Positions 2 to 36,603 of a DNA stretch of 64,000 nt are shown piece after piece (within the stretch, counting starts at the first letter, position 1; each line of letters opens with the position of its first letter). The stretch is from Sporosarcina sp. (GTDB taxonomy: Bacteria; Bacillota; Bacilli; Bacillales_A; Planococcaceae): assembly GCF_029257255.1 (NCBI RefSeq), contig NZ_JARICI010000009.1, positions 1 through 64,000 of the forward strand. Reading direction: 5' to 3'. The notes beneath the pieces were generated by a model. It was not told the DNA's origin, searched no databases, and saw only the letters and a program-made list of their open reading frames with translations. A program made the translations under genes and the position numbers.

Positions 2-154
2 AGCGCCTTGTATTATGAAGAAACTGATCTGGAACAGGCAAAGCACACGATTGATTTAAAGAAAAGAGGTTATTTTGCACACAGGCACGCTCAGAGATAT
101 TTTACATTCATTCACCTCAAAATTCACGTTTCCACAGCGGCAAAAACCATTTAA
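2..154 (+). CDS. C-terminal end of an unidentified gene, 5' part outside window
   Basis: An open frame runs from the window edge to a TAA at 152-154 and gives about 50 residues, beginning SALYYEETDLEQAK. The first half is a plausible helical, charged protein tail. From about residue 25 the frame runs through a repeat end (TTGCACACAGGCAC at 75-88) and then overlaps, in the convergent sense, the 3' end of the YdjM-like gene. The original C-terminus may therefore have been replaced by repeat-derived codons. The protein is not recognised. It could be a real gene end or a chance open frame. Confidence 0.35.
   Translation, partial: SALYYEETDLEQAKHTIDLKKRGYFAHRHAQRYFTFIHLKIHVSTAAKTI
75..88. repeat. 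Class A/B repeat, right end only (fragment)
   Basis: TTGCACACAGGCAC matches the right end of the dispersed palindromic elements found across the first 37 kb. No left arm or core is recognisable before it, so this is a solitary half or a decayed copy. It lies between the open frame at 2-154 and the 3' end of the hydrolase gene. Confidence 0.6.
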
Positions 155-758
155 CACCCCGGCGGTTGACAGGAAGAATCTTCATGTCGGCAATCAGATG
201 GCTGATATAACCGGTAAGCCCGGCGGCAATGAGGCCGTTGACAGGCCACTCTGCATACAGATTCTTTAAAATAAATGCATAAAACACCACGCCGATAATG
301 GAATGCGTGTAGGACCGATGCGGCAAGAAGGAAGCAAATATGATATAGCTGCCCGCAAGCAAAATACCCGGCGATTGCCCGAGGACAAAACCAAGCAGTA
401 GGACCAGGATGCCGCTGATCGTCAGCATATGCCTTTGTGTAATGAGACGCGAGATGATGAGCAGCAGGAAACCGATGGCTCCGTATATGTATATTTCTCG
501 GCCCAATCCTGTTGTTACAGCCTGATAGGCAAGTGTCAGCAGGATGACGATGCCGGCTGTTTCCATGAGCCATTTGCTCACTTTCTTGCTGAGGGTGATG
601 CGGTTGCTGGCAAGCCCGTTCGTGTCAAGATCCGGAACGACGCCTGATATTCCGCCAACTGCGGCGCCGATCAATGCGGTCTGGATGTCCGGCTGCACGG
701 CGTATCCGGCAACGGCACCGGCGGCTGTGCCGATAAGTAGATGTGAAGTGCCTTTCAT
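117..758 (-). CDS. YdjM-like membrane-bound metal-dependent hydrolase
   Basis: The 213-residue protein has the marks of the YdjM/LexA-binding, membrane-bound metal-dependent hydrolase family. These are an N-terminal His (MKGTSHLLIG), a PDLD motif near residue 42, an HRSYTHS motif near residue 146 and SHLIAD near residue 185. The His/Asp residues would bind metal. Several hydrophobic segments lie between them. The substrate is unknown in this family. The start at 758 is preceded by an AGAGAGG-like ribosome site. The gene is monocistronic, and its 3' end converges on a partial repeat. Confidence 0.8.
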   Translation of the reverse strand: MKGTSHLLIGTAAGAVAGYAVQPDIQTALIGAAVGGISGVVPDLDTNGLASNRITLSKKVSKWLMETAGIVILLTLAYQAVTTGLGREIYIYGAIGFLLLIISRLITQRHMLTISGILVLLLGFVLGQSPGILLAGSYIIFASFLPHRSYTHSIIGVVFYAFILKNLYAEWPVNGLIAAGLTGYISHLIADMKILPVNRRGVKWFLPLWKREF

Positions 759-871
759 TATGTAAACCTCTCTGGTTGTCTAGTGTACGGCCGAATGAAG
801 AACGTACATTCGTTCCGTCTTTTCCAGTATAAACGATGTGGCGCGAAATAGAAATGATTCCTTTCGCTAAC

Positions 872-953
872 GGTGCCTGTGCAAGAAACATTCATGATTG
901 TTTGAACAAACATGAATGTTTAAACTTTCACGTTTGTTTCGCACACAGGCACC
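872..953. repeat. Class A palindromic element, full 82 bp form
   Basis: GGTGCCTGTG at the left and CACACAGGCACC at the right form terminal inverted repeats. The core holds AACATTCATG, then its inverted copy CATGAATGTT, then CACGTTTGTTT, so the element can fold into a long, branched hairpin. It sits in the intergenic space between the YdjM-like gene and the TPP riboswitch. No flanking target duplication is obvious. Confidence 0.9.
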
Positions 954-1013
954 CATCTTTTTAAAGTAAGACAAATTCCATCCAATATGTTAATGTAAAA
1001 AAATGAATATTCA

Positions 1014-1112
1014 TCCACTGGAGGTGCTTTTGTAAAGAGCTGAGATTGAAGTGATTGACTTCGGGACTCCTAGAACCTGATCCAGTTCATACTGGCGGAG
1101 GGAAGTGGCACT
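1014..1112 (+). promoter_or_regulatory. TPP riboswitch (THI element)
   Basis: The leader contains the conserved TPP-aptamer blocks CTGAGAT (1039-1045), GAACCTGATCCAGTTCATAC and CTGGCGGAGGGAAGTGG in the right order. The closing helix P1 pairs CCACT (near 1015) with AGTGG (near 1105). It is followed by a terminator hairpin at 1151-1184, so control is probably by premature transcription termination when TPP is bound. The regulated gene is thiO. Confidence 0.95.
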
Positions 1113-1150
1113 GTGACAGTCCATTGTATGTTATAGACTGTACATATGAG

Positions 1151-1184
1151 ATGCTGCTTTCTGTTATGAAAGCGCATTTTTTTA
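1151..1184 (+). terminator. Intrinsic terminator of the TPP riboswitch
   Basis: ATGCTGCTTTC and GAAAGCGCAT pair with one bulged base around a 6-nt loop and are followed by seven T residues. It lies between the aptamer and thiO, as expected for the expression platform. Confidence 0.85.
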
Positions 1185-1248
1185 TTCCCTACAGGCCAGG
1201 ACGGATGTTCATCGACATCAGTTTCTTGAACATGTAGGAGTGAAGACA

Positions 1249-2397
1249 ATGAAGGTATATGATCATATTGTAATTGGTGGAGGCGTAATAGGTTGTTCCA
1301 TTGCCTATCGTCTGGCAGAGGCAGGCTTACGCGTAGCCGTATTTGATGCAGGCAGAGCAGGACAGGCATCTATGGCAGCAGGAGGGATGCTGGGGGCGCA
1401 AAATGAGTTTGAACGGGAAAATCCGTTGTTAGAAATCGCACTGGAAAGCCGGGCGATGTTCCCTCAACTTCGTGATGAATTGCTGTACAGTACGGGTATT
1501 GACATTGAATTACGAACCGCCGGCCTGATCAAAACAGCTGCGACAGAACAGGAATGGAGCGAGTTACGCCAGCAATATCAATTTTTAACCGATAAGGACC
1601 CTTCCATTCAATGGCTTGAACCGGAGGAAGTACCAGAAGTCGAACCTTGTATGACATCCCAAACTGCCGGTGCTATTTTTCTGGAAAAAGACCATCAAGT
1701 AAAAGCACCCCTGCTCGCTGAGGCCTTTTTGAAAGCAGCAATGAATGCCGGTGTCCATGTCTACGAAGAAACAAAGGCTCTTCGCCTGCTCATTCAGCAA
1801 AACCGGGTATTAGGGATTGACACTTCAATCGGTTCGTTTCATGCAACTCAAGTGACGATGGCAGCTGGTGCCTGGAGCAGCCATCTCTTAGCTGACACCA
1901 TTTTTTCCTTGCCCGTCATTCCCGTGAAAGGTGAATGCTTGTCGATTCGATTGGCAGGCCCTGCACCGGTCAAAACGGTTTTTGCGGTAGACGGCTGTTA
2001 TATTGTACCGAAACGAAATAAGGAAATGCTGATCGGCGCAACGTCTATTCCCGGTTCCTTTGATACATCGGTAACGGCTGGCGGCATTCTTTCTTTATTA
2101 CAGAGGGCTTCCCGCCTACTGCCTGTGCTAAGTGACGGAATAATCCACAGGACGTGGGCCGGTGTACGTCCTCAAGCCGCAGACCATCTGCCTGTCATGG
2201 GGTCTCACCCGTTCATCGACAGTCTGCATATATGTACCGGTCATTATCGGAACGGTATTTTGCTCAGTCCCATTACGGGTATTCTGATGAAAAAGTACAT
2301 AACCGGCTGTCAGGAGACGCATAAATTGCTTGCCCCTTTTGCACCAGCACGGTTTTCCGGTTCCTGTGCGGCAAACATTCATGAATGTTTGAACTAA
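1249..2397 (+). CDS. thiO: Glycine oxidase ThiO
   Basis: This FAD-dependent oxidase converts glycine to the imine used to build the thiazole of thiamine. The N-terminus has the dinucleotide-binding GGGVIG motif (about residues 8-13), and the C-terminal part has TGHYRNGILLSP, typical of the ThiO/DAO fold. I chose the ATG at 1249, which has AGGAG 8 nt upstream, over the GTG at 1240. A TPP riboswitch precedes it. Two features are odd. The last 20 or so codons and the TAA lie inside a class A repeat, so the C-terminus is repeat-derived. The usual downstream thiS, thiG and thiF are absent. Activity is therefore uncertain, although the catalytic core is complete. Confidence 0.92.
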   Translation: MKVYDHIVIGGGVIGCSIAYRLAEAGLRVAVFDAGRAGQASMAAGGMLGAQNEFERENPLLEIALESRAMFPQLRDELLYSTGIDIELRTAGLIKTAATEQEWSELRQQYQFLTDKDPSIQWLEPEEVPEVEPCMTSQTAGAIFLEKDHQVKAPLLAEAFLKAAMNAGVHVYEETKALRLLIQQNRVLGIDTSIGSFHATQVTMAAGAWSSHLLADTIFSLPVIPVKGECLSIRLAGPAPVKTVFAVDGCYIVPKRNKEMLIGATSIPGSFDTSVTAGGILSLLQRASRLLPVLSDGIIHRTWAGVRPQAADHLPVMGSHPFIDSLHICTGHYRNGILLSPITGILMKKYITGCQETHKLLAPFAPARFSGSCAANIHECLN

Positions 2398-2440
2398 CAC
2401 GATTGTTTGAACTTTCACGTTTGTTTTGCACACAGGCACC
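2359..2440. repeat. Class A element overlapping the thiO 3' end
   Basis: The left end is GGTTCCTGTGCG, with one change from the consensus, and the right end is CACACAGGCACC. The interior is AACATTCATGAATGTTTG followed by CACGATTGTTTG and CACGTTTGTTTTG. The thiO stop codon (2395-2397) is inside the element, so the copy arrived at, or was captured by, the 3' end of a coding sequence. Confidence 0.88.
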
Positions 2441-2538
2441 ACTCAGGCTCTGGACTCCTAACTAAATGACCATGCAGTTTATCTGCCCTTACCTTTGGAA
2501 AGACTAGGACTAATTTCATTAAAGGCGGTGGGCTCCGT

Positions 2539-3066
2539 ATGACGGAAAAGCATGTGAACTGGGAAAAACGGAAGGAGTTCAGGAAAAAGAATCTTTGGGC
2601 AGGAATTTTATTCGGCCTGGGGTTTGTGGCGTTTATGGATGAGACGGTGTTTCATCAGCTGCTGCACTGGCATAAGTTCTACGATAAATCGACGGTGGCA
2701 ATGGGACTTGTGTCAGACGGGCTGTTCCATGCATTCAGCTGGTTCGCGACGGTGGGCGGCTTGTATTTAGCAGCAGATCTCTACAGACGGAATGCGCTAT
2801 GGCATAAAATATTCTGGGGCGGCAAGCTGGTCGGAGGCGGAGCATTTCAATTATATGACGGGACGATACAGCATAAGGTTTTGAGGATCCATCAAATCCG
2901 CTACGATGTCGATATCGTTCCTTACGATCTCGTGTGGAACGGATCGGCGGTTATCATGATTGCATCGGGTCTTTTGCTGATACATTCTGCGAAGCGGGAT
3001 GCGCGGGGGATCAGGCAGGTGAAGGCAGGTGAAGCCACATGTGGCATGAGTCATTTTTTGTTGTGA
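2539..3066 (+). CDS. DUF2243 family membrane protein
   Basis: The 175-residue protein has four hydrophobic segments and the family-typical stretch LYDGTIQHKVLRIHQIR with PYDLVWNG after it, which marks DUF2243. The function is unknown. Members usually sit beside a caa3-type oxidase assembly (CtaG-like) gene, as here, so a role in copper or heme-copper oxidase biogenesis is a reasonable inference. The 3' end overlaps the start of the CtaG-like gene by 28 nt, which suggests translational coupling. Confidence 0.8.
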   Translation: MTEKHVNWEKRKEFRKKNLWAGILFGLGFVAFMDETVFHQLLHWHKFYDKSTVAMGLVSDGLFHAFSWFATVGGLYLAADLYRRNALWHKIFWGGKLVGGGAFQLYDGTIQHKVLRIHQIRYDVDIVPYDLVWNGSAVIMIASGLLLIHSAKRDARGIRQVKAGEATCGMSHFLL

Positions 3067-3855
3067 CTGATTGGTTGTTGGGGATTCCGGCATTGCTGGC
3101 GATTGCGCTTTATCTATTCAGTGTCTATCGTTCCGACCGGCAGAAGCGTCTTCGGAAATGGCCGCGGATGCGCATCGTTTTCTGGGTATCGGGCACAATT
3201 TTTTTCAGCCAGTGCGCTGGTCGGCCCACTGGCTGTACTGGCGCATGAGAATTTCACTTGGCATATGGCAGGTCATTTATTTGTCGGGATGCTCGGTCCA
3301 CTTTTATTGGCACTCGGTGCTCCGGTGACGCTCTTACTCCGGACACTTCCTGTTCGGCGGGCGCGGCAGGTGAGCCGGTTGCTGAGGAGCCGGATTGCTG
3401 GTTTTTATATTCATCCAGTCACCGCGGCTATGCTGAATATCGGCGGACTTTGGATGCTGTATACGACCGGATTATTTGCCGCGATGCATCATCATCTCTG
3501 GCTGCATATACTCGTCCATGCCCAAGTGTTCGCGGCAGGCTATTTGTTCACGGTTTCCATGCTGGCTATCGATCCGTTATCGCGGCGGTTCAGCTACACC
3601 TATCGGACAATCGTTTTCATTCTGGCGCTGGCAGGTCACGGAATCCTTTCAAAATTTCTCTATGCCTATCCGCCGCACGGGGTACCTGTCGAGGAAGCCC
3701 GTGCAGGTGCCATGTTGATGTATTATGGTGGTGATGCAGTGGATCTGGCGATTATCGTATTGCTGTTCAGGGGATGGTACCTGTCGGCCAATCGCGCGAG
3801 GCAGCAGTTCCGGCGTGAAAGTACTTTAGGGTGCCTGTGCAAGAAACATTCATGA
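3039..3855 (+). pseudogene. CtaG-like cytochrome c oxidase assembly protein, frameshifted
   Basis: Two overlapping frames together give one caa3_CtaG-family membrane protein. The first, from ATG 3039, reads MWHESFFVVTDWLL up to FWVSGTIFF. The second continues from about 3205 with SASALVGPL, HMAGHLFVGMLGPLLLALGAP and later segments. The shift falls at seven consecutive T residues (3199-3205); removing one T restores a continuous protein. The last eight residues (GCLCKKHS) and the TGA come from the class A repeat at 3829-3910. It may be a true frameshift, a homopolymer sequencing error, or transcript slippage at the T run. The family acts in the membrane in assembly of the oxidase copper centre. 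Confidence 0.8.
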
Positions 3856-3910
3856 TTGTTTGAACAAACATGAATGTTTAAACTTTTACGTTTGTTTCGC
3901 ACACAGGCAC
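3829..3910. repeat. Class A element, full 82 bp form, at the ctaG 3' end
   Basis: GGGTGCCTGTGC starts the element and GCACACAGGCAC ends it. The interior is nearly identical to the copy at 872-953 (one C-to-T change in CTTTTACG). It contributes the final codons and stop of the CtaG-like gene. Confidence 0.9.
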
Positions 3911-3924
3911 TGATACGGCCGCAC

Positions 3925-4002
3925 GCAGCTATTCAAGGATTTATGGACGGTGGCTGGGAAAAAATTATAAAGGAGAAACTTCCGTTTTATCTAGGGGGAT
4001 AA
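3925..4002 (+). pseudogene. Possible gene remnant (C-terminal tail)
   Basis: Immediately after the class A repeat an open frame reads AAIQGFMDGGWEKIIKEK to a TAA at 4000-4002. It has no start codon and no ribosome site. It looks like the tail of a protein whose upstream part was lost at the repeat boundary. The family cannot be named from 25 residues. It may also be chance. Confidence 0.3.
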
Positions 4003-4051
4003 TGCGGTGTTTACACAAATCCAATAATAAATAACGGAAAGGAAGATTTAT

Positions 4052-4453
4052 ATGAAGAATGTAAAACCTTTTTTGATGTTCCAGGGCGGTATGGCGGAAG
4101 AAGCCATGAAATTCTACACCACACTAATTGAGGATTCGAAAATCACTCATATTGCAAGATACGGTTCAGAAGGACCAGGCAAGGAAGGTACCGTTATTCA
4201 AGCTGTCTTTTCGTTGAAGGGACAGGAATTCATGTGCATCGACAGCCATATTGATCACGATTTTTCATTCACCCCTTCTTTCTCCATCTATTTGACATGT
4301 GATACGGAAGAGGAAATTGACAAGCTTTACGATGAATTACTGCAAAAAGGTGCTGCACTCATGCCGATCGGTGATTATGGATTCAGCAAAAAATTCGGAT
4401 GGCTGGTGGATCGTTTCGGCATATCCTGGCAGCTGGACTTGCCGAATGAATGA
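4052..4453 (+). CDS. VOC family protein, PhnB-like
   Basis: The 133-residue protein starts MKNVKPFLMFQGGMAEEAMKFY and ends DRFGISWQLDLPNE. Both signatures are typical of PhnB-like members of the vicinal oxygen chelate (glyoxalase) fold. The family is mostly uncharacterised, and no substrate can be assigned. GGAAAGGAAG precedes the ATG. It overlaps the next gene by 8 nt, so the two are probably co-transcribed. Confidence 0.8.
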   Translation: MKNVKPFLMFQGGMAEEAMKFYTTLIEDSKITHIARYGSEGPGKEGTVIQAVFSLKGQEFMCIDSHIDHDFSFTPSFSIYLTCDTEEEIDKLYDELLQKGAALMPIGDYGFSKKFGWLVDRFGISWQLDLPNE

Positions 4454-4817
4454 CAGGAAGACTGTTAGCCAAGAAATCCAAGATCAATCCATTAAGTCTC
4501 TGACGTCGACGTTCGGTAAACTTTCCAATGCTTATAAGAGCATGACGGAAAAAGGCTCAAATACCACACTTGTCACGAAGAGGCGCAGCGCTGTAAAGAT
4601 TGGCTTAGAAAGCCTTGAAAACCTATGGGATGGTGAAGCCTTTAATTATGATGAAGCAGATATCCAAGCTTCTAAAGATATTTTACAAGGGATCTTGCCT
4701 TCCATTGAAAAACAGATAGAAAAAGCAAAAGAAGGAAGTCCTCAAAAAACAGTTAATGAACGGCGTCTGACTGCACTTACATTCGCAATCGAATCTTTGG
4801 CAGACCGCCTAACGTAA
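4446..4817 (+). CDS. Hypothetical helical protein
   Basis: The ATG at 4446 overlaps the stop of the VOC gene and gives 123 residues from MNDRKTVSQEIQDQ to ESLADRLT. The composition is charged and predicted helical, with no membrane segment or known motif. Starting at 4446 rather than at an upstream codon within the VOC gene fits the ATGA-type coupling. I do not recognise the family. Confidence 0.6.
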   Translation: MNDRKTVSQEIQDQSIKSLTSTFGKLSNAYKSMTEKGSNTTLVTKRRSAVKIGLESLENLWDGEAFNYDEADIQASKDILQGILPSIEKQIEKAKEGSPQKTVNERRLTALTFAIESLADRLT

Positions 4818-4835
4818 ATAAATCACGGGGGAAAT

Positions 4836-5450: not shown

Positions 5451-5507
5451 TTTTTAAGAAGACAGCTTTTTCAAAAAAACTTCTCTTTTTATCATCTAGT
5501 ATTAGAA

Positions 5508-5557
5508 GCGCTGCCTGCACTAGAAACTTTCACGATTGTTTCGTACACAGGCAGCGC
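5508..5557. repeat. Short class A element
   Basis: GCGCTGCCTGCAC at the left and GTACACAGGCAGCGC at the right flank a single core module (AAACTTTCACGATTGTTTC). The ends carry compensating changes: CTGCC at the left matches GGCAG at the right. The stem is therefore conserved although the sequence drifted. It lies between two convergent genes. Confidence 0.75.
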
Positions 5558-5682
5558 CTTTAAAAGAGAAATCAAGATTAACTTAAAGCTCTACTTGCGT
5601 TAGCACACGGTACTTTATATCGATGCTCATTTTTTCTTGAAGTTCATTACATGCTTTTGCATTTTGGTAATAGAAATCCATT

Positions 5683-6897: not shown

Positions 6898-6912
6898 ATC
6901 TAGTCCACCTCT

Positions 6913-12278: not shown

Positions 12279-12324
12279 GGTGCCTGTGCGTAAAACATTC
12301 ATGTTTGTTTCGCACACAGGCACC
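12279..12324. repeat. Short class A element, 46 bp form
   Basis: GGTGCCTGTGCG and CGCACACAGGCACC flank one core module (AAACATTCATGTTTGTTT). It equals the 82 bp copies minus one 36 bp segment. It lies just after the nuclease-like gene and 5 nt before the stop of the convergent membrane protein gene, where it may act as a two-way terminator. Confidence 0.9.
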
Positions 12325-14817: not shown

Positions 14818-14873
14818 TGTCTGCGCCATAAACAATTCAGAATAGTGTTGGAGTTGTGTGCTACACAGGCACC
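14818..14873. repeat. Class B element with decayed left end
   Basis: The core AACAATTCAGAATAGT and right end GTGTGCTACACAGGCACC are intact. The left end reads GTCTGCGCC instead of GGTGCCTGTGCGCC. It is the only class B copy within the class A territory. It lies upstream of the DD-carboxypeptidase gene and downstream of the GNAT gene. Confidence 0.75.
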
Positions 14874-15670: not shown

Positions 15671-15752
15671 GGTGCCTGTGTAGCAAACATTCATGAAAGT
15701 TTAAACAAACGTGAATGTTTAAACACTCACGTTTGTTTCACGCACAGGCACC
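15671..15752. repeat. Class A element, full 82 bp form
   Basis: GGTGCCTGTGTAG at the left and CACGCACAGGCACC at the right bracket AACATTCATGAAAGTTTAAAC and its inverted partners. It abuts the truncated histidine phosphatase gene, so insertion or recombination at this element probably removed the 5' half of that gene. Confidence 0.9.
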
Positions 15753-16556: not shown

Positions 16557-16655
16557 GGTGCCTAGATTCATCACAACGCCTGATCATATATATTCGTAAT
16601 TACTCAAACAAACGTGAATGTTCAAACTTTCATGTTTGTTTGGCGCACAGGCACC
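16557..16655. repeat. Degenerate class A element
   Basis: The left end is GGTGCCT and then diverges. The right half, CAAACAAACGTGAATGTTCAAAC to GGCGCACAGGCACC, is well kept. The left core looks replaced by unrelated sequence (about 16565-16603). It lies between the small membrane protein and the antiporter gene. Confidence 0.75.
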
Positions 16656-17720: not shown

Positions 17721-17802
17721 GGTGCCTGTGTGGAAAACATTCATGACTGTTCAAACAAACGTGAATGTTTGAACTTTCACGTTTGTTTGGCACACAGGCA
17801 CC
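17721..17802. repeat. Class A element, full 82 bp form
   Basis: GGTGCCTGTGTGG and GGCACACAGGCACC enclose AACATTCATGACTGTTC, CAAACGTGAATG and CTTTCACGTTTG. It fills the gap between two convergent genes: it starts 8 nt after the antiporter stop and ends 1 nt before the stop of the gene at 17804. A bidirectional terminator role is likely. Confidence 0.92.
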
Positions 17803-19600: not shown

Positions 19601-20587
19601 TCAGTTGTGCGTTTCCGCCTGAATCTCCAGCACCTCTTGAAGTTTCAACCCTGTTTCTTCAGCAACCTTTTCCGCCTCAATTCCATTGCTGAGCATGTAA
19701 CGAGCCATTTTCCTCAGAGTTCTTTTCTCTCCTTTCTCTGCTCCTTTCTTTTCTCCTCTTTTCTCTCCTCTTTCTTCCCCCCGAAGCTCCGCCTCCCGAA
19801 CCACGGCTTCTTCATCCAGGATCCGTTTTAGCCTGGATTCATACGCATAGATTTCTTCAGGCGATCTGCTGAGCGACTCCCAGCTTTCGAACGCCTGATG
19901 AAGCGACTCATCTTTCATAGCGATCTCCTCCAGTTCTTTCAAAATATCGTCGTAGATTTCCCCGTTCCGCTGATCGACTATACCAAGTAACAGCAGCCAC
20001 CTCGCCAGCACATCATCCCGAGGATCCAATTTCCCTTCTTTCCAAGCCCGGATCAATTTCGGCATCTCCACAAAATGCATTTCCATCATATCGGTCAGCC
20101 GGAAACGCTTTTCCTGCTCATATAGACAAAAGGTCGTATGGAAACTGTCTGTCTGATGAAACAAATTAAAATTCATCAAATTCACTGTAATGACAGGGTT
20201 CAACTCCCTGTACGCCATCTTCTTCCGCATCTGATTACGGTAGACAGATGCCCAATAAAAAAGGGAGCGCGCCACCATATCATATTGATTATTAAACTGG
20301 ATCTCTACATTGATCCACTCGCCCTTCTCCGTAACGACCAATAAATCCAGGCGTGACTGTTTGTCTTCCGCATATTCTCCGCCTGCTTCCAGATTGGTAA
20401 AAGAAATACCGGTAATTCGGTCCTGTCCCGTCCTTTTCAGCACAGCATTCAAAAACACGATCGTGATTTCCTGGTTCGGTTCATTGCCGAACAGCTGCTT
20501 AAATGCATAATCCACTTTCAAATCCATTAATCGATCTAGAGGGATTCGCTTCACGATCCTTGACGTGATTTCTATGTTCCCTGCCAC
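19601..20587 (-). CDS. Rpn family recombination-promoting nuclease / putative transposase
   Basis: The 328-residue protein has the Rpn/PDDEXK_2 pattern. It starts LMDLKVDYAFKQLFG, then has SRLDLLVVTEKGEWINVEIQ, where the Asp and Glu-x-Gln form the nuclease site, then YWASVYRNQM. The C-terminal third is highly charged, with repeats of GE(K/E)RGEK, followed by a GI-x-x-x-x-VAEETGL helix. Rpn proteins cut DNA and promote RecA-independent recombination. They are often mobile or present in several copies. It is a single gene. A small remnant with a similar tail lies at 13526-13618. Confidence 0.85.
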   Translation of the reverse strand: MAGNIEITSRIVKRIPLDRLMDLKVDYAFKQLFGNEPNQEITIVFLNAVLKRTGQDRITGISFTNLEAGGEYAEDKQSRLDLLVVTEKGEWINVEIQFNNQYDMVARSLFYWASVYRNQMRKKMAYRELNPVITVNLMNFNLFHQTDSFHTTFCLYEQEKRFRLTDMMEMHFVEMPKLIRAWKEGKLDPRDDVLARWLLLLGIVDQRNGEIYDDILKELEEIAMKDESLHQAFESWESLSRSPEEIYAYESRLKRILDEEAVVREAELRGEERGEKRGEKKGAEKGEKRTLRKMARYMLSNGIEAEKVAEETGLKLQEVLEIQAETHN

Positions 20588-21100: not shown

Positions 21101-21147
21101 ACCCACCACGCCTCTTCACAATGCGGACCACGGTGGGTCATTTTTTA
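21101..21147 (+). terminator. Terminator-like hairpin on the plus strand
   Basis: ACCCACC pairs with GGTGGGT and is followed by CATTTTTTATTT. No plus-strand gene ends here, so it may be part of the folded T-box region on the other strand or a leftover terminator. The stretch 20590-20940 holds no gene I can support. Confidence 0.45.
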
Positions 21148-21160
21148 TTTGGACGAGGAC

Positions 21161-21228
21161 GTGCCTGTGCGTCACACAAATCCAGAACAATTCAGAATAG
21201 TGTCTAATTTGCGCAGCACACAGGCACC
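21161..21228. repeat. Class B element
   Basis: GTGCCTGTGCGTCACACAAA at the left and GCGCAGCACACAGGCACC at the right surround CAGAACAATTCAGAATAGTG. It lies between the T-box remnant and the ArAE gene, about 30 nt before the ATG of the latter. Confidence 0.88.
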
Positions 21229-22782: not shown

Positions 22783-22798
22783 CCTTCCCTTTTTTCTC

Positions 22799-22866
22799 GT
22801 GCCTGTGCGCCAAACAACTTCAGAACAATTCAGAATAGTTTCCGAATCGTGTGGCACACAGGCACC
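22799..22866. repeat. Class B element
   Basis: GTGCCTGTGCGCCAAACAAC and GTGTGGCACACAGGCACC frame CAGAACAATTCAGAATAGT. The left CAAACAACTT can pair with the right GTGTGG region to extend the hairpin. It lies between the GNAT gene stop (22899) and the PH-protein start. It also offers a false ATG to the downstream gene. Confidence 0.9.
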
Positions 22867-23771: not shown

Positions 23772-23840
23772 GGTGCCTGCGCAGCACGCAAATCGCAAAC
23801 AATTCAGAATAGCTTCCGAATTGTTTGGTACACAGGCACC
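23772..23840. repeat. Class B element
   Basis: GGTGCCTGCGCAGC and GTACACAGGCACC surround CAAACAATTCAGAATAGC. It ends 1 bp before the stop of the next minus-strand gene (23841), so the hairpin directly follows that gene's stop codon. Confidence 0.88.
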
Positions 23841-24562: not shown

Positions 24563-24579
24563 GCGTGCCTGTGTGCCAC
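24563..24579. repeat. Class B element, left end only (fragment)
   Basis: GCGTGCCTGTGTGCCAC matches the left end of class B copies and stops exactly at the stop codon of the gene at 24580-24774. The core and right end are missing. It may be a partial deletion product. Confidence 0.65.
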
Positions 24580-24774
24580 TCAATTCAACATGGTTGCAAC
24601 ATCTTTTTCTATTTCAAAGATCAAAAAGTCATCATCTTCTTCGACAACAACTTTTTCATATTTACACTCTTTGTCAATGATCATTTCAAAGTAGTTCGTT
24701 TCGTTATTCAATTCAAAAACCGGACATTGATCAAACCGGACATCACCAATAAAAATGGCTCTAATTTTTTTCAT
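24580..24774 (-). CDS. Small acidic hypothetical protein
   Basis: The 64-residue product (MKKIRAIFIGDVRFDQ to DVATMLN) is acidic in its second half and lacks a signal. AAGGAG with 7 nt spacing precedes the ATG, which supports it as a real gene. The stop codon borders a repeat fragment. The function is unknown. Confidence 0.55.
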   Translation of the reverse strand: MKKIRAIFIGDVRFDQCPVFELNNETNYFEMIIDKECKYEKVVVEEDDDFLIFEIEKDVATMLN

Positions 24775-25066: not shown

Positions 25067-25087
25067 TTTCAGCACCCTTTCTTTAAA

Positions 25088-25154
25088 GTTCCTGTGTGCC
25101 ACACAAATCAAAAACAATTCAGAATAGCCTTCAAGTTGTGTGGTACACAGGCAC
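25088..25154. repeat. Class B element
   Basis: GTTCCTGTGTGCCACACAAA and GTTGTGTGGTACACAGGCAC flank CAAAAACAATTCAGAATAGC. The left end has T for G at the fourth base of the consensus. It ends 2 bp before the stop of the DUF2200 gene. Confidence 0.88.
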
Positions 25155-25156
25155 TC

Positions 25157-25507: not shown

Positions 25508-25540
25508 TGGATACTCAACCTTTCTGCATGAAAAACTCAG

Positions 25541-25607
25541 GTGCCTGTGTACCAGACAACTTCGAAACACTTCAGAATAGTTTCCAAATTGTGTAGCACA
25601 CAGGCAC
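25541..25607. repeat. Class B element
   Basis: GTGCCTGTGTACCAGACAAC and GTGTAGCACACAGGCAC flank CGAAACACTTCAGAATAGT. It separates the DUF2200 gene from the lipoprotein gene at 25632. Confidence 0.88.
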
Positions 25608-25631
25608 GCCTACAATCTGCATATATCTTCT

Positions 25632-27302: not shown

Positions 27303-27325
27303 TTTATCCCCTCCCCCTATTCGAA

Positions 27326-27393
27326 GTGCCTGTGCGCCACACAACTTCGAAACAATTCTGAATAATTTACGAGTTGTGTGGCGCACAGGCACC
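27326..27393. repeat. Class B element
   Basis: GTGCCTGTGCGCCACACAAC and GTTGTGTGGCGCACAGGCACC flank CGAAACAATTCTGAATAAT. Left CGCCACACAACTTCG and right CGAGTTGTGTGGCG form a long, almost perfect stem. It ends 1 bp before the stop of the alpha/beta hydrolase gene. Confidence 0.9.
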
Positions 27394-29016: not shown

Positions 29017-29056
29017 TACAATAATCGGACTGATTCATCACTATGAAATTTAAGAA

Positions 29057-29152
29057 AGAGACCATCTCAAACCCCTTGCTTCTATATACGAAAAAGGAAA
29101 AACAAGGTTTCAAATTTATCTGAATACGGAAGGGGTTTTGAGACTATCTGGT
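29057..29152. repeat. Imperfect inverted repeat, MITE- or IS-end-like
   Basis: GAGACCATCTCAAACCCCTT at the left and AAGGGGTTTTGAGACTATCT at the right are inverted copies with a few differences, with about 50 bp between. The size and arms look like a miniature element or a remnant of transposon ends. It is not related to the class A/B repeats. Confidence 0.4.
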
Positions 29153-29291
29153 GAAATAACTTTTTAATTCACGAGGTTGTCTGGAGTAAGTATCATCATT
29201 GAAAATTTGTGGAGAAGTGATTCGCGGTACACGTATTTATTCAGGTATCGCACTGCAATTTGTTACAAAAACAGTAATGCACTGGTCATTC

Positions 29292-29666: not shown

Positions 29667-29876
29667 ACCAGTACCCCGTTTCCGAAATTATATTGCAATA
29701 AAGTACTATGACATCCACAGTCCTCCGCAAACAGCACCCTCAGCTCCTAGTAGAATAAATAGATAGCAAGCCAAATTTAAACCAAAAATCGTCAGGTTCA
29801 TATTCAAGTATTTTCAATGCAAGTCTCCATTATTTGAAATTCACGCTTATTTTCCATTAAACTACTATGGACTGAT

Positions 29877-29956
29877 GTGCCTGTGCGCAAAACAACTTGA
29901 AAACTATTCAGAATAGTTTTGGATTTGTGTGGCACACAGGCACCTCCACAGGCACC
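29877..29956. repeat. Class B element with duplicated right end
   Basis: GTGCCTGTGCGCAAAACAAC and TGTGTGGCACACAGGCACC flank GAAAACTATTCAGAATAGT. Directly after the right end the terminal sequence is repeated (TCCACAGGCACC at 29945-29956). This short tandem copy may have formed by slippage or a failed transposition event. Confidence 0.85.
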
Positions 29957-29985
29957 TCCAAAGAAATGCGAAAGGAAGATCATTC

Positions 29986-31615: not shown

Positions 31616-31637
31616 CCGTAACTCCCCTTTATTCTAA

Positions 31638-31925
31638 TTACAAAGCTTTTCTATACCTGACAGCAAACGGCGCCAACATGGAACCGATAAGTACAATAAA
31701 ACATGCACCCGCCAGTATCAACGCATATTGTGGATTATCTGAGAATGAACTCCCAAAAAGCACCGCCGGAAACATGGTCATTGAAACAAAAGTCAACCGG
31801 CCAAGCGGGGTGATTTTATGCAATGTCCCGCACTCACTGCATGCTATCGGCGTATAATTTCGCCACAGAGAAGTGAAAGTCGTCTTCCAGTCAAACTGCT
31901 TACCGCAGTTCTCACACTTTTTCAA
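31638..31925 (-). CDS. TIGR04104-like zinc-ribbon membrane protein
   Basis: The 95-residue protein begins MKKCENCGKQFDWKTTF, with a second pair in PIACSECGTLHKI, so four cysteines form a zinc ribbon. Two membrane helices follow (VSMTMFPAVLFGSSF and YALILAGACFIVLIGSML). The start is a TTG with GAGGTGG upstream. The role is unknown. It lies 22 nt upstream of the lipoprotein gene and is likely co-transcribed with it. Confidence 0.65.
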   Translation of the reverse strand: MKKCENCGKQFDWKTTFTSLWRNYTPIACSECGTLHKITPLGRLTFVSMTMFPAVLFGSSFSDNPQYALILAGACFIVLIGSMLAPFAVRYRKAL

Positions 31926-32032
31926 AATAAAGCCACCTCACATTGTTGTATACTTCCACTTGAGGAACAGGAAATCTTTTCCTCTATGATAAGCTAAAAT
32001 GAAGTACTTTGCTACGATAAGATGATTTTCAA

Positions 32033-32299
32033 TTAGGACAGCTGGTATCTGATGTTGTCCATTTCTTCTTTCGTGGCATAATCATAATCAAAATTTCCAA
32101 GTCCCGCCTGCTGTGGCAGTTTGAGCAGCTCGAATTCGTCCATGATCGATTTGCGGTCTGCAGCAGACAAGCTGCCGCCTTTCCCGCAAATGCTGGATGT
32201 CTGCTGCGGGACGGTGTTCTGGATAAACAGCTCATACTCACCGATCCATTCACGTTTTGAACCTCTGTCCTCAGAGTTCGACGTATAAAGCTCCGCCAC
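32033..32299 (-). pseudogene. Unassigned C-terminal gene fragment
   Basis: A frame of about 88 residues (AELYTSNSEDRGSKREW to NIRYQLS) has natural-looking composition. The only possible start is a GTG crowded against GGAG. The frame starts right after the terminator of the 2HCT operon, without a promoter. I read it as the tail of a lost gene. The family is not recognised. Confidence 0.4.
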
Positions 32300-32308
32300 C
32301 TCCAGACA

Positions 32309-32349
32309 TAAAAAACAGCAGCATCAACCACTAAAGGTTCATACTGCTG
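32309..32349 (-). terminator. Terminator of the 2-hydroxycarboxylate operon
   Basis: CAGCAGCATCAACC pairs with GGTTCATACTGCTG (one mismatch), and the minus strand continues with TTTTTTATG. It lies about 13 nt after the stop of the transporter gene, the last gene of its operon. Confidence 0.85.
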
Positions 32350-32361
32350 TCTGTTCGTCTA

Positions 32362-33672
32362 TTATACGAAGATATTGACCAGTAAACTAGCGAGCAGGAT
32401 AATCAAGGCACCGCCGAGTCTGGATGAAATCTGGGCAAACGGCATAAGCTCCATGCGTTTGGCTGCAGAAAGAACAGCTACGTCACCTGTTCCACCCATA
32501 TTGGCCATACAAAGACCTGCTGTGATCGCTGCTTCAATCGGGTAGAAACCGACAAGTTTGCCGACCAGACCCGCACCGATAATGGCACCTAGAACTACAC
32601 CCATTACGATCACTACATATTGGATACTCAGAGCAGAAAGAATTGCACCTAAGTCTGTGTAAACTACCCCAACCCCAATCAATAGAGCAAGCGTAAAGTT
32701 CTTTGCAACAAATTGATACCACTGACTTGCACTTTCTTCAATGAAAGCAGGCAATAGATTGGTTGCTTTCACGATCGCTACAGTCAGAATCATAATAGCA
32801 TATGGATGAATCGGTATGAACTGACCAAGAATAGTACCAACCATATAGAAGGAAGCCGCTACGAGCAGTCCAACACCCATCTTGCCGAAATCCGCTTTCA
32901 ACACCGGTTGTTCATAAGTGAATCCTTTAATCAGTTGCCCGTTGCCTGTAAGACTTGGAAACTTTTTGCCCAAGACATTCAAGCCTGCTGCTAAAATAAT
33001 CGCGAACACGTTACCAAGTGCAAGAGCAGGGATTAACAATGACATGTAATAACTGGTATCTTTCCCAAGCAGCTCAGAATACACTTCCGCCATAGGCACA
33101 GCTCCCGCTCCGAGACCTCCACCCATAATTGGCAGTGTCATAACGAGTACTGAATCCTGGATAGAAAATCCGACAATTTTCCCGACAATAGCCGCCAAGA
33201 CAATAGCTCCCACAATTCCCGCAAGCAACGGAAACGCATAGCGCAGACCCGCCTGCAGAAGCACTTTTGAATTCATTCCTAAAATACTGCCTGTAATCAA
33301 TGCAGCAATATAAAAATTCAGGAAGTCGCCAGCTTTCATAAACTCTGTAATGCTTTCAACGGTACCGGCAGGCATTAAGCCCGAGTAGACCAGATAAGAC
33401 GAACCGAAAATCGCGACAATTGCGCCTCCTCCAAGGAACGTCTTAATAATTGGCGTATGATCGCCGATAAAGCCGAGCAGCTCACCGAGTACAATCATGA
33501 TCAGCAAAGCACCGATCAATCCCGGCGGCAGAACGCCCATATACATACTTACGATCGCAATGGCCGAAAAGCCTAAGAACCAGCCGATCGGTAAATTAAA
33601 AATCGTGATCTTGCGTGACAATAATGGATTGTCATTATAATCCATGGTTGTTTTATTCTCATCAATCGCCAT
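32362..33672 (-). CDS. 2-hydroxycarboxylate transporter (2HCT family)
   Basis: The 436-residue membrane protein has the two conserved GGxG reentrant motifs of the 2HCT family (LPIMGGGLGAGAVP and ANMGGTGDVAVL) and about ten hydrophobic helices. Members carry malate, citrate or citramalate-like substrates, usually with Na+ or H+. I start at ATG 33672 (AGGGGG upstream); it overlaps the stop of the CitE-type gene. It is the last gene of a three-gene operon and supplies the substrate for the other two. Confidence 0.9.
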   Translation of the reverse strand: MAIDENKTTMDYNDNPLLSRKITIFNLPIGWFLGFSAIAIVSMYMGVLPPGLIGALLIMIVLGELLGFIGDHTPIIKTFLGGGAIVAIFGSSYLVYSGLMPAGTVESITEFMKAGDFLNFYIAALITGSILGMNSKVLLQAGLRYAFPLLAGIVGAIVLAAIVGKIVGFSIQDSVLVMTLPIMGGGLGAGAVPMAEVYSELLGKDTSYYMSLLIPALALGNVFAIILAAGLNVLGKKFPSLTGNGQLIKGFTYEQPVLKADFGKMGVGLLVAASFYMVGTILGQFIPIHPYAIMILTVAIVKATNLLPAFIEESASQWYQFVAKNFTLALLIGVGVVYTDLGAILSALSIQYVVIVMGVVLGAIIGAGLVGKLVGFYPIEAAITAGLCMANMGGTGDVAVLSAAKRMELMPFAQISSRLGGALIILLASLLVNIFV

Positions 33673-34535
33673 CAGTTTTCCCCCTGTTGTTTCGAATCCA
33701 GCATCTCTGCTAGTTCGCAAATCTGTCTTGCCCGCTTGATGATCGGCTCATCGACCATCTTGCCGTTTAATTGGAACACCGCAGCGCCGTGTTCTTCTAC
33801 ATATGCCATGATTTCTGCAGCTTGATCCTTCTCAGCCTGGGTCGGCTGAAAGATTGCGTTGATGCAGTCGACTTGCATCGGATGAATGGCCAGCTTACCG
33901 CCGAAACCAAGTCCCTTCACCATCAAAGCCTCTTTTTCAAGTCCTTCCGTATCTCTGAAATCAACGAAAACCGTATCAATCGGTTTCTCCAGTTCAGCAG
34001 CACGGGAAGCCAGGACAATTCTGGAACGTGCATACAATAATTCCGTTCCTTCCGCCGTCAGCGTGGCTCCGATATCTAAACCGAAATCTACAGAACCGAA
34101 CGCCAGACGCTTCACACGATCAGAAGAACTTCCTATTTCAAAGGCATTCTGCACACCAAGTGCTGTTTCAAGCAAAGGCAGAATCCCAACATTCGCCGGT
34201 ACCCCCAATGAATTCAGTAATAAGTCCAGCGCTACAACATCTGTATTACGATTCGTCTTGGGCAGCATGATTGCTGTAAGTGTATCCGCTTTCAGATTTG
34301 CTATAGCGTGGATATCTTCTAAAAAGTATGGTGTTTCCATGGAATTGACGCGCACAATCACAGACTTTGCAGTCGCTGAGAGAGCGTTGCATACTCTCTC
34401 CCGTGCGTCCGCTTTCTGATCGGGTGCCACGGCGTCCTCCAAATCATAAATGATGACATCGGCAGGCAACTGCTCTGCTTTGGCAATCACTTTTTCATTA
34501 TTTCCTGGAACAAATAGAAATGATCGTACTAACAT
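33672..34535 (-). CDS. CitE/HpcH-type CoA-ester lyase
   Basis: The 287-residue protein begins MLVRSFLFVPGNNEKVIAKA and has IIYDLEDAVAPDQK, the metal-binding region of CitE-like malyl-CoA, citramalyl-CoA or citryl-CoA lyases. It also has FGSVDFGLDIG and GFGGKLAIHPMQV near the C-terminus. It cleaves a 3-hydroxyacyl-type CoA ester to acetyl-CoA and an oxoacid. No citrate lyase alpha and gamma subunits are present, so free CoA-ester cleavage is more likely than a citrate lyase complex. It is 12 nt downstream of the CoA-transferase. Confidence 0.88.
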   Translation of the reverse strand: MLVRSFLFVPGNNEKVIAKAEQLPADVIIYDLEDAVAPDQKADARERVCNALSATAKSVIVRVNSMETPYFLEDIHAIANLKADTLTAIMLPKTNRNTDVVALDLLLNSLGVPANVGILPLLETALGVQNAFEIGSSSDRVKRLAFGSVDFGLDIGATLTAEGTELLYARSRIVLASRAAELEKPIDTVFVDFRDTEGLEKEALMVKGLGFGGKLAIHPMQVDCINAIFQPTQAEKDQAAEIMAYVEEHGAAVFQLNGKMVDEPIIKRARQICELAEMLDSKQQGEN

Positions 34536-34547
34536 CGTCAGCCCTCC

Positions 34548-35726
34548 TCAGATTGTGTTCGTGTCCTTACATTTTTGAATGAATTCTTCATCAAAATCAA
34601 ATTCGCGCAAGATGCTGTCTGTATGTTCCCCGACCGACGGAATCGCTTCCATCACAGGTTCAAAATCTTCAAATGTCGCAGGTGGCAGCAATGCTTGAAT
34701 CATGCCGTTCGGCGTTGCCACGTCACGCCAGCGGTTACGGGCCTTCAACTGCGGATGCTGAACGAATTCTTCAACCGAATTTAATCGCGCATTGGCAATC
34801 TTTGTTTTTTCCAGCAGCTCGATTAATTCATCTGCAGTGTAGGCAGCGAAACCTTCTTCAATGATTTGCTTCAGTTCTTCTTTATTTTCCACACGGGCTG
34901 AATTGGTCTTATACTTTTCATCCGTAATCAGATCCGGGCGCTTCATAACTGTTTCTGAGAATGAAGCCCATTCGCGGTCATTCTGTATGGAGAAGAAGAC
35001 AAACTTTTCGTCGTTCGCAGGGAATGGTCCGTACGGGAAGATTGTTGCGTGACTTGCTCCCGATCTGGCCGGTTCTGTGCCTCCGTAATGTGAATAGTAA
35101 AGCGGATAGCCCATCCACTCCCCAAGTGCTTCAAGCATAGACACTTCAAATACAGAACCTTTGCCTGTCCGGCTGCGCTGAATGATTGCTGTCAAAATTC
35201 CTGTATACGCATACATTCCAGCCGCAATATCCGCTACAGACATGCCGGCTTTCGATGGTGTATCTTCTGTTCCCGTGATTGACACAAGTCCTGCTTCACA
35301 TTGAATCAGCAGATCGTACGCTTTCTTATCGACATACGGCCCGTAAGAACCATAGCCTGAAATGCCGCAAACAACCAGTTTTTCGTATTTCTCTTTCAAC
35401 AACTGCGGGCTGAAACCTAAACGATCAACTGCACCCGGCGCTAAATTCTGTATGAAAACATCTGCTTCTGATAAAAGCTTGTGTAGGATTTCTTTTCCTT
35501 CATCACTCTTCAAGTTCAGTGTCAAAGATTCTTTTGATCTATTGATCCAGACAAAGTGACTGGACATGCCGTCAACTGTCGTATCGTAGTGTCGTGCAAA
35601 ATCGCCGCTGACTGGGCGTTCTATTTTAATGACTCTGGCACCGAGATCTGCCAGCTGTCTAGTAGCAAACGGAGCTGCAACAGCCTGTTCCAATGAAACA
35701 ACTGTAATTCCCTCAAGTGGTAACAT
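34548..35726 (-). CDS. CaiB/BaiF family III CoA-transferase
   Basis: The 392-residue protein starts LPLEGITVVSLEQAVAAPFA and has the family III features ARVIKIERPVSGDFAR and a likely catalytic Asp in KKAYDLLIQCEAGLVS. It moves CoA from a donor such as succinyl-CoA or acetyl-CoA to a carboxylic acid. As the first gene of the operon with a CoA-ester lyase and a 2-hydroxycarboxylate transporter, it probably activates malate or citramalate (inference). Confidence 0.88.
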   Translation of the reverse strand: MLPLEGITVVSLEQAVAAPFATRQLADLGARVIKIERPVSGDFARHYDTTVDGMSSHFVWINRSKESLTLNLKSDEGKEILHKLLSEADVFIQNLAPGAVDRLGFSPQLLKEKYEKLVVCGISGYGSYGPYVDKKAYDLLIQCEAGLVSITGTEDTPSKAGMSVADIAAGMYAYTGILTAIIQRSRTGKGSVFEVSMLEALGEWMGYPLYYSHYGGTEPARSGASHATIFPYGPFPANDEKFVFFSIQNDREWASFSETVMKRPDLITDEKYKTNSARVENKEELKQIIEEGFAAYTADELIELLEKTKIANARLNSVEEFVQHPQLKARNRWRDVATPNGMIQALLPPATFEDFEPVMEAIPSVGEHTDSILREFDFDEEFIQKCKDTNTI

Positions 35727-35750
35727 GGATTCTTCCTCCTTTGGATTCTG

Positions 35751-35768
35751 GATACAGAATACTGTATC
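35751..35768. promoter_or_regulatory. GntR-type operator palindrome
   Basis: GATACAG and CTGTATC are perfect inverted arms around AATA. The site sits just downstream of the -10 box of the minus-strand operon, where a bound GntR regulator would block transcription. The divergent gntR gene starts about 110 bp away, and the site is the best candidate for its target. Confidence 0.65.
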
Positions 35769-35771
35769 AAT

Positions 35772-35798
35772 ATTATAGTGACTTTTTTAAGTTGTCAA
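35772..35798 (-). promoter_or_regulatory. Promoter of the CoA-transferase operon
   Basis: On the minus strand TTGACA (35798-35793) and TATAAT (35777-35772) lie 15 bp apart; a register using TAATAT gives 17 bp. Both boxes are near consensus. The palindromic operator overlaps the predicted start of transcription. Confidence 0.65.
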
Positions 35799-35875
35799 TC
35801 TATTTTTCTTTGTTGTAGAATTTCCTTAAAGAATCGATATAATGGAGAGAATAGACGAATGGAGTGCATGTCCAA

Positions 35876-36508
35876 ATGAAACCGATTGCCAAACTATCCA
35901 CGAGGGATCAAGTCATCGCGACTTTGCGGAAAGCGATCTTTAACGGTGACTTAAAAGACGGGGAAGAATTAATTCAGGAAGATATCGCTACTAAACTAAA
36001 TGTCTCTAGAATGCCCGTCCGCGAAGCCTTCTACGCTCTCGAGCGCGAAGGTCTCCTGACGACTAATCAAAAACGTCGGGTCACTGTTAAAGGAATTACC
36101 CATAAAGATATCGAAGATCACTACGACATCCGCGCCATGCTCGAAGGCGAAGCATCGGCAAGAGCAAGCCAAAAAGACTTCGACAAGGACGAGCTCCGCG
36201 AAGTACAGCAGGATATTGAAACAGCTGTAGCTGAAGGTCAAACAAAAGATTATATCATCGCCAACGAGCATTTCCACCGCATCATCTGGAAAGCTTCCGA
36301 CAGCGAACGCCTACAGTCCTTCCTTGACCAAATGTGGAACGGCCTGCCCCCTCACCTCGCCGAGATGCTCGGGGAACAGATGAATAAATCCATGCAGGAG
36401 CACAAACTAATTGTCGACGCAATACTTTCCGGCAATGCAGACAAAGCAAGAGAAGCAACAGAAAATCATATCCGACGGAGCATGAGAGACTTCCTGGAAA
36501 ACTATTGA
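35876..36508 (+). CDS. GntR family transcriptional regulator (FCD type)
   Basis: The 210-residue protein has an N-terminal winged helix (STRDQVIATLRKAIFNGDL, then LNVSRMPVREAFYALEREGL). A helical C-terminal FCD domain follows, with HYDIRAMLEGEASARAS and the metal/ligand His residues in NEHFHRIIW and QEHKLIVDAI. I choose the ATG at 35876 with GGAG upstream. It probably represses the divergent CoA-transferase operon and releases it on binding a carboxylate effector. Confidence 0.9.
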   Translation: MKPIAKLSTRDQVIATLRKAIFNGDLKDGEELIQEDIATKLNVSRMPVREAFYALEREGLLTTNQKRRVTVKGITHKDIEDHYDIRAMLEGEASARASQKDFDKDELREVQQDIETAVAEGQTKDYIIANEHFHRIIWKASDSERLQSFLDQMWNGLPPHLAEMLGEQMNKSMQEHKLIVDAILSGNADKAREATENHIRRSMRDFLENY

Positions 36509-36510
36509 AT

Positions 36511-36603
36511 GGTTCCTTGAGTGGTGCCCTGAGTGGTGCCTGTGCGCCACACAATTCCAAAAGAATTCAGAATAATTTCTAAGTTGTTTCGTACACAGGC
36601 ACC
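36511..36603. repeat. Class B element with extra left-end sequence
   Basis: The element proper is 36535-36603: GGTGCCTGTGCGCCACACAA and GTTTCGTACACAGGCACC flank CAAAAGAATTCAGAATAAT. Before it lie GGTTCC and GAGTGGTGCCCTGAGTGGTGCC, that is, short tandem copies of the left tip. It is the last member of the family in the window. Confidence 0.85.

Follow-up and report, generated by a model that had tools for sequence, protein, structure and literature searches.

Palindromic elements of the window

The window analysed here, the first 64 kb of contig C65, comes from a Sporosarcina genome (G000; 3.27 Mb, 90 contigs) and carries, between its open reading frames (ORFs), a family of dispersed palindromic elements. 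G-numbers designate the genomes compared, C-numbers contigs and L-numbers loci. Every element follows the same plan, a foot, a core and an inverted foot. With at most two mismatches allowed, the foot GGTGCCTGTGYG was matched 40 times in the window against 5.2 matches expected and a maximum of 11 in 100 shuffles. Manual reading of these matches yielded 17 recognisable copies, 8 of class A and 9 of class B, together with two one-ended fragments. The copy number and the two core classes with common ends, both described in an earlier sequence-only reading of the window, are thereby borne out, far above chance.

The class A core is built from consecutive 18-bp units of the form AAACxxxCRTGxxxGTTT and gives elements of 26+18n bp. 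These measure 44, 80 and 98 bp in G000, where the 62-bp form that is common in relatives occurs only in a degenerate state. Class B elements are 67 bp long in G000, and the relatives also hold forms of 55/56 bp, shorter by one 11-bp step, and a single 45-bp form. Sporosarcina cascadiensis further has foot-foot forms that lack a core and measure about 25 bp; the elements of two relatives, G022 and G028, match entries for Sporosarcina sp. NCCP-2716 and S. cascadiensis A4. Two copies of the window, at 872 and 3830, are 99% identical. No element matches any RNA family of Rfam at the gathering score.

The long hairpin with compensating changes that had been proposed for all elements is well supported for the feet and fairly so for class B, and it is not supported for the class A core, a grading which follows from the folding, covariation and triplet results. 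Three whole elements folded as single-stranded DNA (872, 12279 and 27325) all surpassed 200 shuffles, with z from -5.3 to -12.0, and the foot change noticed earlier at 5508-5557 is real and compensated in the opposite foot (GCTGCCTG...CAGGCAGC). Among 35 class B elements, full-length pairing is backed by three of five measures: 80.8% of the cells are paired against 72.6% in shuffles, 122 cells are changed on both sides against 67.1 in shuffles and 12-47 when the partner is slid, and the covariation score reaches 0.282 against 0.143. The two remaining measures do not exceed the shuffles, with 18 covarying pairs against 16.9 and 39 pair types against 41.7. This covariation is strongest in the feet, several core pairs being mostly unpaired. 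In class A, pairing of the variable triplets did not exceed that of shuffled ones in 28 two-unit and 14 three-unit elements, four-unit elements having been left out. Separate hairpins for each class A unit were also considered and rejected, as they were not above shuffles and three-unit elements even fell below them.

A RAYT-like gene bracketed by the same repeats

No transposase for these elements had been seen in the window, and a Pfam scan of 27 ORFs of the window agrees, the only transposase-like one being an unrelated PD-(D/E)XK protein. The genome holds two Y1_Tnp (PF01797) matches, both on contig C50. One of them, at 68295-68630 (53.1 bits), lies between two facing half class B elements of about 40 bp and belongs to the bracketed locus G000:C50:68055-68885. 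It encodes a Y1/HUH protein resembling the REP-associated tyrosine transposases (RAYTs), named after repetitive extragenic palindromic (REP) sequences, a kind of enzyme that the sequence-only reading had recommended looking for. Its motifs are NHYH and YIHRNP. Its best NCBIfam match is REP_Tyr_transpos, at 74.2 bits, just under the cut-off of 80 (59.7 bits for the other G000 copy), and no sequence relative was found in the PDB at E up to 1. Three more half elements are located within 13 kb. The half element on its left has no fold of its own (z of +1.05 and +0.10 on the two strands). At the surrounding locus L008 (G000:C50:55000-70000), single half class B repeats cluster round the gene, some of them beside terminator-like hairpins.

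Y1_Tnp matches were found in 28 of 37 genomes of the genus and in 18 of 24 further ones, IS200-type genes included. After exclusion of four repeat loci and of two ORFs from outside the genus, 43 distinct RAYT-like ORFs remained, of which 14 are bracketed by foot-type repeats; these calls are a reader's judgement of the best inverted repeat proposed by a script. Elements with the same foot as the bracketed gene are clear in 12 of the 14 genomes concerned (G000, G028, G052, G001, G018, G019, G024, G030, G055, G027, G054 and G060) and partial in the other two, with one end only in G029 and a minority of the elements in G035. RAYTs with the foot GTRCCAGGTCC occur in six genomes, all of them among the ten that hold such elements; as these six are relatives, they are not six independent cases. 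The RAYT of G035 has a class B half on its left and two class A units on its right, and therefore links the two core types.

Distribution and alternative feet

The exact pattern of two feet separated by 34 to 64 bases was found in 12 of 101 genomes, all within the 61 of the same genus and none among the 40 others, so the ends are not confined to the window, as the earlier reading had asked to be verified. Reversed control patterns gave no match in any genome row of the element scans. Two-unit class A cores with any foot are more widespread, being present in 26 of 68 genomes of the genus, with a control of 0. The alternative foot GTACCTGTG was recorded in 19 of these 68 genomes, GTRCCAGGTCC in 10, and GTGACAGTCAC with related feet in 12. 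GTGCCAGGCAC is another foot of the genus, where both cores recur with other feet, and class A units also sit between feet of the GGTGACAGTCACC and GGTGCCAGGCACC types. The cores are modular.

A foot common to several phyla was considered as well. Among the matches listed for GTGCCTGTG palindromes (115 loci), 22 are from Sporosarcina, and neither core was recognised by eye in the remaining 93. Among 15 Y1 loci in 8 of these genomes (6 with a match), stray GTGCCTG 7-mers were present at two and a flanking element of this type at none, and the cross-phylum foot was therefore dropped. In a metagenome-assembled genome of the Phycisphaeraceae, at least 12 loci (L026, L029, L034, L045, L066, L085, L091, L098, L099, L115, L119 and L123) belong to another repeat family, many of whose members are palindromic and which likewise ends in GTGCCTGTG; GTGCCTG was not found near the three Y1 matches of that genome. 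Carriage by plasmids or phages was also discarded: the first 24 kb of the window matched plasmids only over a 48-50 bp non-element stretch, and by eye none of 20 viral-contig loci had a class A or B core.

Gene order around the elements

Gene order that varies between species at the elements, co-orientation of the copies and the modular cores go beyond the sequence-only reading. In a clade of five species (G030, G018, G055, G024 and G106), 33 of the 36 exact two-ended copies lie in one stretch per genome, the exceptions being at 0.33 Mb in G030, on contig C1 of G055 and at 2.80 Mb in G106. The count draws on the 101-genome scan, which did not include G106, and on the scans for GTACCTGTG and GTRCCAGGTCC. 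When one mismatch per foot was allowed, 15 elements were counted in G030 between 1.020 and 1.074 Mb, in 235 kb read. The flanks of this zone are largely collinear between the species, and the order of orthologues differs inside it. Over the 20 ordered genome pairs, and for genes with an orthologue in the other genome, 130 of 362 adjacencies are lost inside the zone against 46 of 1716 outside. Between direct neighbours, and for zone gaps of at least 100 bp, 27 of 47 gaps with an element are broken against 25 of 116 without. Pooled p-values for such comparisons overstate the evidence, because the comparisons overlap and come from five related genomes.

The genes that moved kept their direction. 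When each of the 10 genome pairs is counted once, a moved gene is involved in 32 of 187 shared-gene comparisons inside the zone, always in the same orientation, and in 12 of 862 outside it, every one of the latter in pairs involving G106. The elements of the zone are themselves largely co-oriented, with 21 of 22 for the 62-mers and 28 of 29 for the 67-mers, some of these being one element inherited by several species; the few 44-mers (3 to 2) and 56-mers (3 to 3) are of mixed orientation. Length classes with fewer than five elements were left out of the orientation tests, and the profile-based orientation tally leaves out scores between -2 and 2.

Two joints illustrate how genes and elements are combined, E standing for an element. 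Joint (a) is located where a probable transporter operon ends, with X-E-Y in G024 and X-E1-g-E2-Y in G055. E1 is 4% different from E, the extra DNA starts directly after the last GGTACC of E1 and ends with another GGTACC before Y, and g is located elsewhere in G018 and G030. At joint (b), the situation is reversed, with X-E-Y in G055 and X-E1-abc-E2-Y in G024, where E2 is 3% different from E; the three-gene block abc is elsewhere in G030 and G055. In G030, abc has on its left a decayed element whose left flank is TATAACGG, as in G024. TATAAC is also found in the X of G030 at the joint, and about 40 bp of the end of X are absent in G024.

The window compared with S. cascadiensis shows a weaker version of the pattern of the clade zone. 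Twelve DNA blocks are common to the window and to contig C8 of S. cascadiensis, 11 of them in the same orientation, and window blocks 1 to 12 follow there the order 1, 2, 10, 3 (inverted), 5, 6, 4, 8, 7, 9, 11, 12. Alignments under 200 bp or 65% identity were left out of this comparison, and those under 250 bp out of another alignment step. Block ends fall within 60 bp of a detected element in 12 of 24 cases in the window and in 3 of 24 in S. cascadiensis; such proximity is weak evidence alone, because intergenic DNA diverges fast. By eye, S. cascadiensis has class B in place of class A to the left of block 5, a foot-foot form in place of the three-unit class A to the right of block 1, and a foot-foot form to the left of block 12. 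In the window, the three-unit class A elements agree in orientation in 5 of 5 cases, and so do, when compared with one another, 10 of the 11 class B 67-mers on C65. Strict synteny between the window and the clade zone was rejected, as C65 matches well only at the left-edge gene; further genes of the clade zone match contig C81 of G000.

Probable origin of the elements and their possible part in gene movement

The elements are probably non-autonomous. Each would combine, in inverted orientation, two copies of the repeat, made of a foot and part of a core, that borders a RAYT-like Y1/HUH gene located elsewhere in the genome, and the elements may later have become joints for moved genes. The RAYT would recognise the foot on single-stranded DNA, as TnpAREP does with REP, and would insert or copy the element beside a short left-hand target without recognisable target duplication; no such duplication, a feature of DDE-type MITEs, was seen in the flanks read by eye. 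The most likely route would be the spread of dimers of the enzyme's own terminal repeat into intergenic DNA; foot and enzyme repeats match. Many co-oriented copies between accessory genes would then become joints, as suggested by their position and orientation, and a gene or short operon would be cut out and rejoined beside another copy (X-E-Y giving X-E-g-E-Y) by either the HUH enzyme or ordinary recombination between direct repeats. The earlier proposal of REP/BIME-like elements (BIME, bacterial interspersed mosaic element) moved in trans by a RAYT keeps its second half, given the bracketed RAYT in the same genome and the matching feet in relatives, and loses its strict REP part, since the GTAG tag is missing and the half element does not fold.

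Several observations weigh against this scheme. No transposition was observed. The RAYT gene is located outside the zone, 29 of the 43 RAYT-like ORFs have no recognised foot-type bracket, and G007, G010 and G016 hold elements without any Y1_Tnp match. Comparison of loci with and without a copy, proposed earlier to reveal an insertion footprint, gave no clean empty site with both flanks. Taken singly, the gap tests, likewise for gaps of at least 100 bp, reach p<0.05 in only two of seven pairs (G030-G055 and G030-G024); four others go in the same direction and G018-G106 is without any break. Two genes at the zone edge of G106 are inverted. For elements that two species have at a common gene end, the differences (0.145 and 0.143) are hardly smaller than those of random pairs (0.159), and class B of C65 scored with the clade profile gives a common orientation in 8 of 11 cases, with one clearly reversed. 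A dependence of orientation on GC skew, as in strand-coupled insertion, was tried and is not claimed: 9 of 12 three-unit class A elements of G000 fit (C65, C89, C70 and C82) and 3 do not (C45 and C81), and class B across genomes is a draw, at 38 against 32.

What ties the elements to the shuffling is a correlation of position and orientation, and they may be its cause or mere markers of it. That they are passive markers is a serious if tentative alternative, in which RAYT-type elements insert wherever they are tolerated in a hypervariable zone, and gene gain and loss and transformation do the shuffling. The intergenic location of the elements is consistent with it, as are the gene gains and losses in which the zone is rich, several without an element at the joint, and the 18 cases of an adjacency retained across an element, two facts that also count against joints made by elements. 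The low count of block ends near elements on S. cascadiensis C8 points the same way, although by eye some other ends have decayed or minimal elements. Passive markers do not readily account for the excess of broken gaps at elements, for the absence of inversion in all 32 moved-gene comparisons or for the two joints, where a segment was inserted at, or along with, an element.

Ordinary homologous recombination between co-oriented repeats of 62-98 bp, in which gene circles would be excised and reinserted and the RAYT would only make the repeats, is rather unlikely. Direct repeats would account for the co-orientation and for moved genes that keep their direction, and near-identical copies exist within one genome, as at 872 and 3830. 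Against this, random equal-length elements of different clade genomes differ by 16% on average, and copies that differed as much within one genome would be poor pairing substrates for RecA. Doubtful to a similar degree is a RAYT-driven counterpart of the integron, where co-oriented palindromic sites produced by a domesticated HUH transposase would delimit a chromosomal zone of accessory genes, and single genes or short operons lying between two sites would be excised and reinserted at others without inversion.

A regulatory or nucleoid function, as bidirectional terminators or protein-binding arrays, is improbable. The strong hairpins and regular 18-bp units would suit it, as would the flanks of class A in the clade, which by eye are A-rich on the left and CTTATTT-like on the right, and some elements do lie between convergent ORFs (5508, 12279 and 17721). 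Others are flanked by divergent ORFs (872, 15671 and 21160), and the feet vary between species and match RAYT repeats. An integron-like site-specific system, in which attC-like hairpins would be the substrate of a tyrosine recombinase, is very improbable in spite of the cassette-like joints and of palindromic sites that share one orientation and separate accessory genes, since no Phage_integrase (PF00589) match exists in the zone of the five clade genomes or on contigs C65, C81 and C45 of G000, the zone genes lie on both strands (11 plus and 21 minus in G030) and the RAYT carries the same repeats.

Comparison with known systems

The closest known kind is the TIRtron/TIRYT, the elements here behaving like a TIRtron with dimers of REPIN type, because the half element has no fold of its own and the feet lack the GTAG that marks true REPs. 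TIRtrons comprise a RAYT-like gene within long terminal inverted repeats (TIRs) unrelated to GTAG REPs, and their repeat families are moderately abundant, many forming dimers or clusters, according to the available text of Di Nocera et al. 2013 (PMC3733652). The Sporosarcina Y1 (HUH) gene is similarly flanked by facing inverted repeats of about 40 bp, 14 of the 43 ORFs of the genus are bracketed, and the repeats form a dispersed, dimeric family with 17 exact two-ended copies in G000. The motif GGGGWSAS, which in the text available is common to some of the published TIRs without being required, is not found in the Sporosarcina feet GTGCCTGTG, GTACCTGTG, GTRCCAGGTCC, GTGACAGTCAC and GTGCCAGGCAC. 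That same text (PMC3733652) names none of these feet, no ladder of 18-bp or 11-bp cores, no change of foot among members of one genus and no connection with gene order. As a separate observation, in another genus of the class the inverted repeats around a RAYT-like ORF (L200, G071) contain GGGGTCAG, in agreement with the GGGGWSAS of published TIRtrons.

In Proteobacteria, REPINs and BIMEs are two inverted copies of a RAYT-linked repeat, as described in the accessible parts of PMC3116915, PMC2817692 and PMC8049555. The Sporosarcina elements, so far as these descriptions extend, are likewise two inverted RAYT-linked repeats, intergenic and non-autonomous. BIME-2 are a modular expansion, like the core ladders of Sporosarcina. 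Unlike REPs and REPINs, the Sporosarcina feet have no GT[AG]G, the single repeat does not fold and the copies are concentrated in one zone of the clade. At the level of the enzyme, subclass 2.1 of TnpAY1 holds 20 of 26 published TIRYTs in the text available of Quentin et al. 2018 (PMC6006769). By motif reading only, the Sporosarcina protein resembles this subclass, as partly described there, in its NHYH-type HUH motif and Y...NP; the subclass is reported in that partial text as lacking REP-like neighbours, and Sporosarcina has YIHRNP rather than YIELNP or Y[IV]HLNP. A term search of the same portion of PMC6006769 gave no mention of Firmicutes, Bacilli, Sporosarcina, gene order or cassette.

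In integrons and CALINs, accessory genes are separated by palindromic sites of one orientation and inserted in the manner of cassettes; attC sites carry the R boxes RYYYAAC and GTTRRRY, and CALINs may lack an integrase. The co-oriented, palindromic 62- and 67-mers of Sporosarcina and their cassette-like insertion recall them, but the zone has no integrase match, its genes are on both strands and the repeats accompany an HUH enzyme. BOX elements of Streptococcus pneumoniae also have conserved ends and a variable number of internal modules, and differ from the Sporosarcina elements in sequence, in size and in the linkage of the latter to a RAYT. No paper on these repeats was found, judging from titles and abstract openings in a search whose coverage mostly excluded subscription journals.

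The exact function of RAYTs is stated as unknown in the accessible part of PMC8049555. If the integron-like reading were true, RAYTs would gain a host role in the reshuffling of gene cassettes. RAYT-linked repeats tied by position and orientation to gene reshuffling would be testable in this genus by strain comparison. The natural series of foot/RAYT pairs is useful for the study of enzyme-repeat recognition, and the two modular cores offer steps of 18 and 11 bp.

Individual copies and neighbouring features

All copies of the window are given on the plus strand. Near the start of the contig lies a fragment that has the right foot only (75..89; foot search and reading). Three-unit class A elements follow at 872..953 (foot search; fold z of -6.1 and -6.3), 2359..2440 and 3830..3911 (both foot search); the upstream FAD-oxidoreductase ORF terminates within the second and a CtaG-like ORF within the third. 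The element with the compensated feet (5508..5557; reading) and that at 12279..12324 (foot search; fold z of -5.3) have one unit each. At the left end of the segment corresponding to the latter, the element of S. cascadiensis is of class B and its right foot is damaged. Further class A copies are a three-unit element at 15671..15752 (foot search), one with a decayed left end at 16574..16655, whose orthologue is S. cascadiensis C8:72972-73051, and a three-unit element at 17721..17802 (foot search); in G013, the Na/Ca exchanger gene likewise has a class A-like element at its 3' end.

Class B is first met as a right half at 14830..14873 (reading). Whole copies are the 67-bp type at 21160..21228 (foot search), those at 22798..22866 and 23772..23840, for each of which S. 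cascadiensis has class B at the right end of the same segment, those at 25087..25155 and 25540..25608 (both foot search), the near-perfect hairpin at 27325..27393 (fold z of -11.3 and -12.0), the element at 29876..29944, which has an extra right foot at 29945-29956 and an ambiguous orientation, and that at 36535..36603 (foot search). The second fragment, at 24564..24590, holds a left foot and the beginning of a class B core. At several other loci, partial copies of one element end adjoin a whole element, in a manner resembling repeated end addition at one site (L001:10150-10250, L004:4794-4915, L004:15866-15989 and L007:12494-12617).

Among the neighbouring features, a TPP riboswitch (1010-1120) followed by the FAD-dependent oxidoreductase gene (1240-2397) is enclosed by two class A elements; in G047, homology to this gene stops beside the foot-like GGTGCCAGGTGCCC. 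The PD-(D/E)XK family transposase (PF12784) lies at 19601-20587, within the element-rich stretch. An abiF RNA match (21102-21138; 38 bits for a cut-off of 37) lies immediately to the left of the class B copy at 21160, and the 48-50 bp around it are 96-98% identical to two Exiguobacterium plasmids. A PreQ1 riboswitch match is located at 52856-52900 and a cspA thermoregulator match at 62841-63214.

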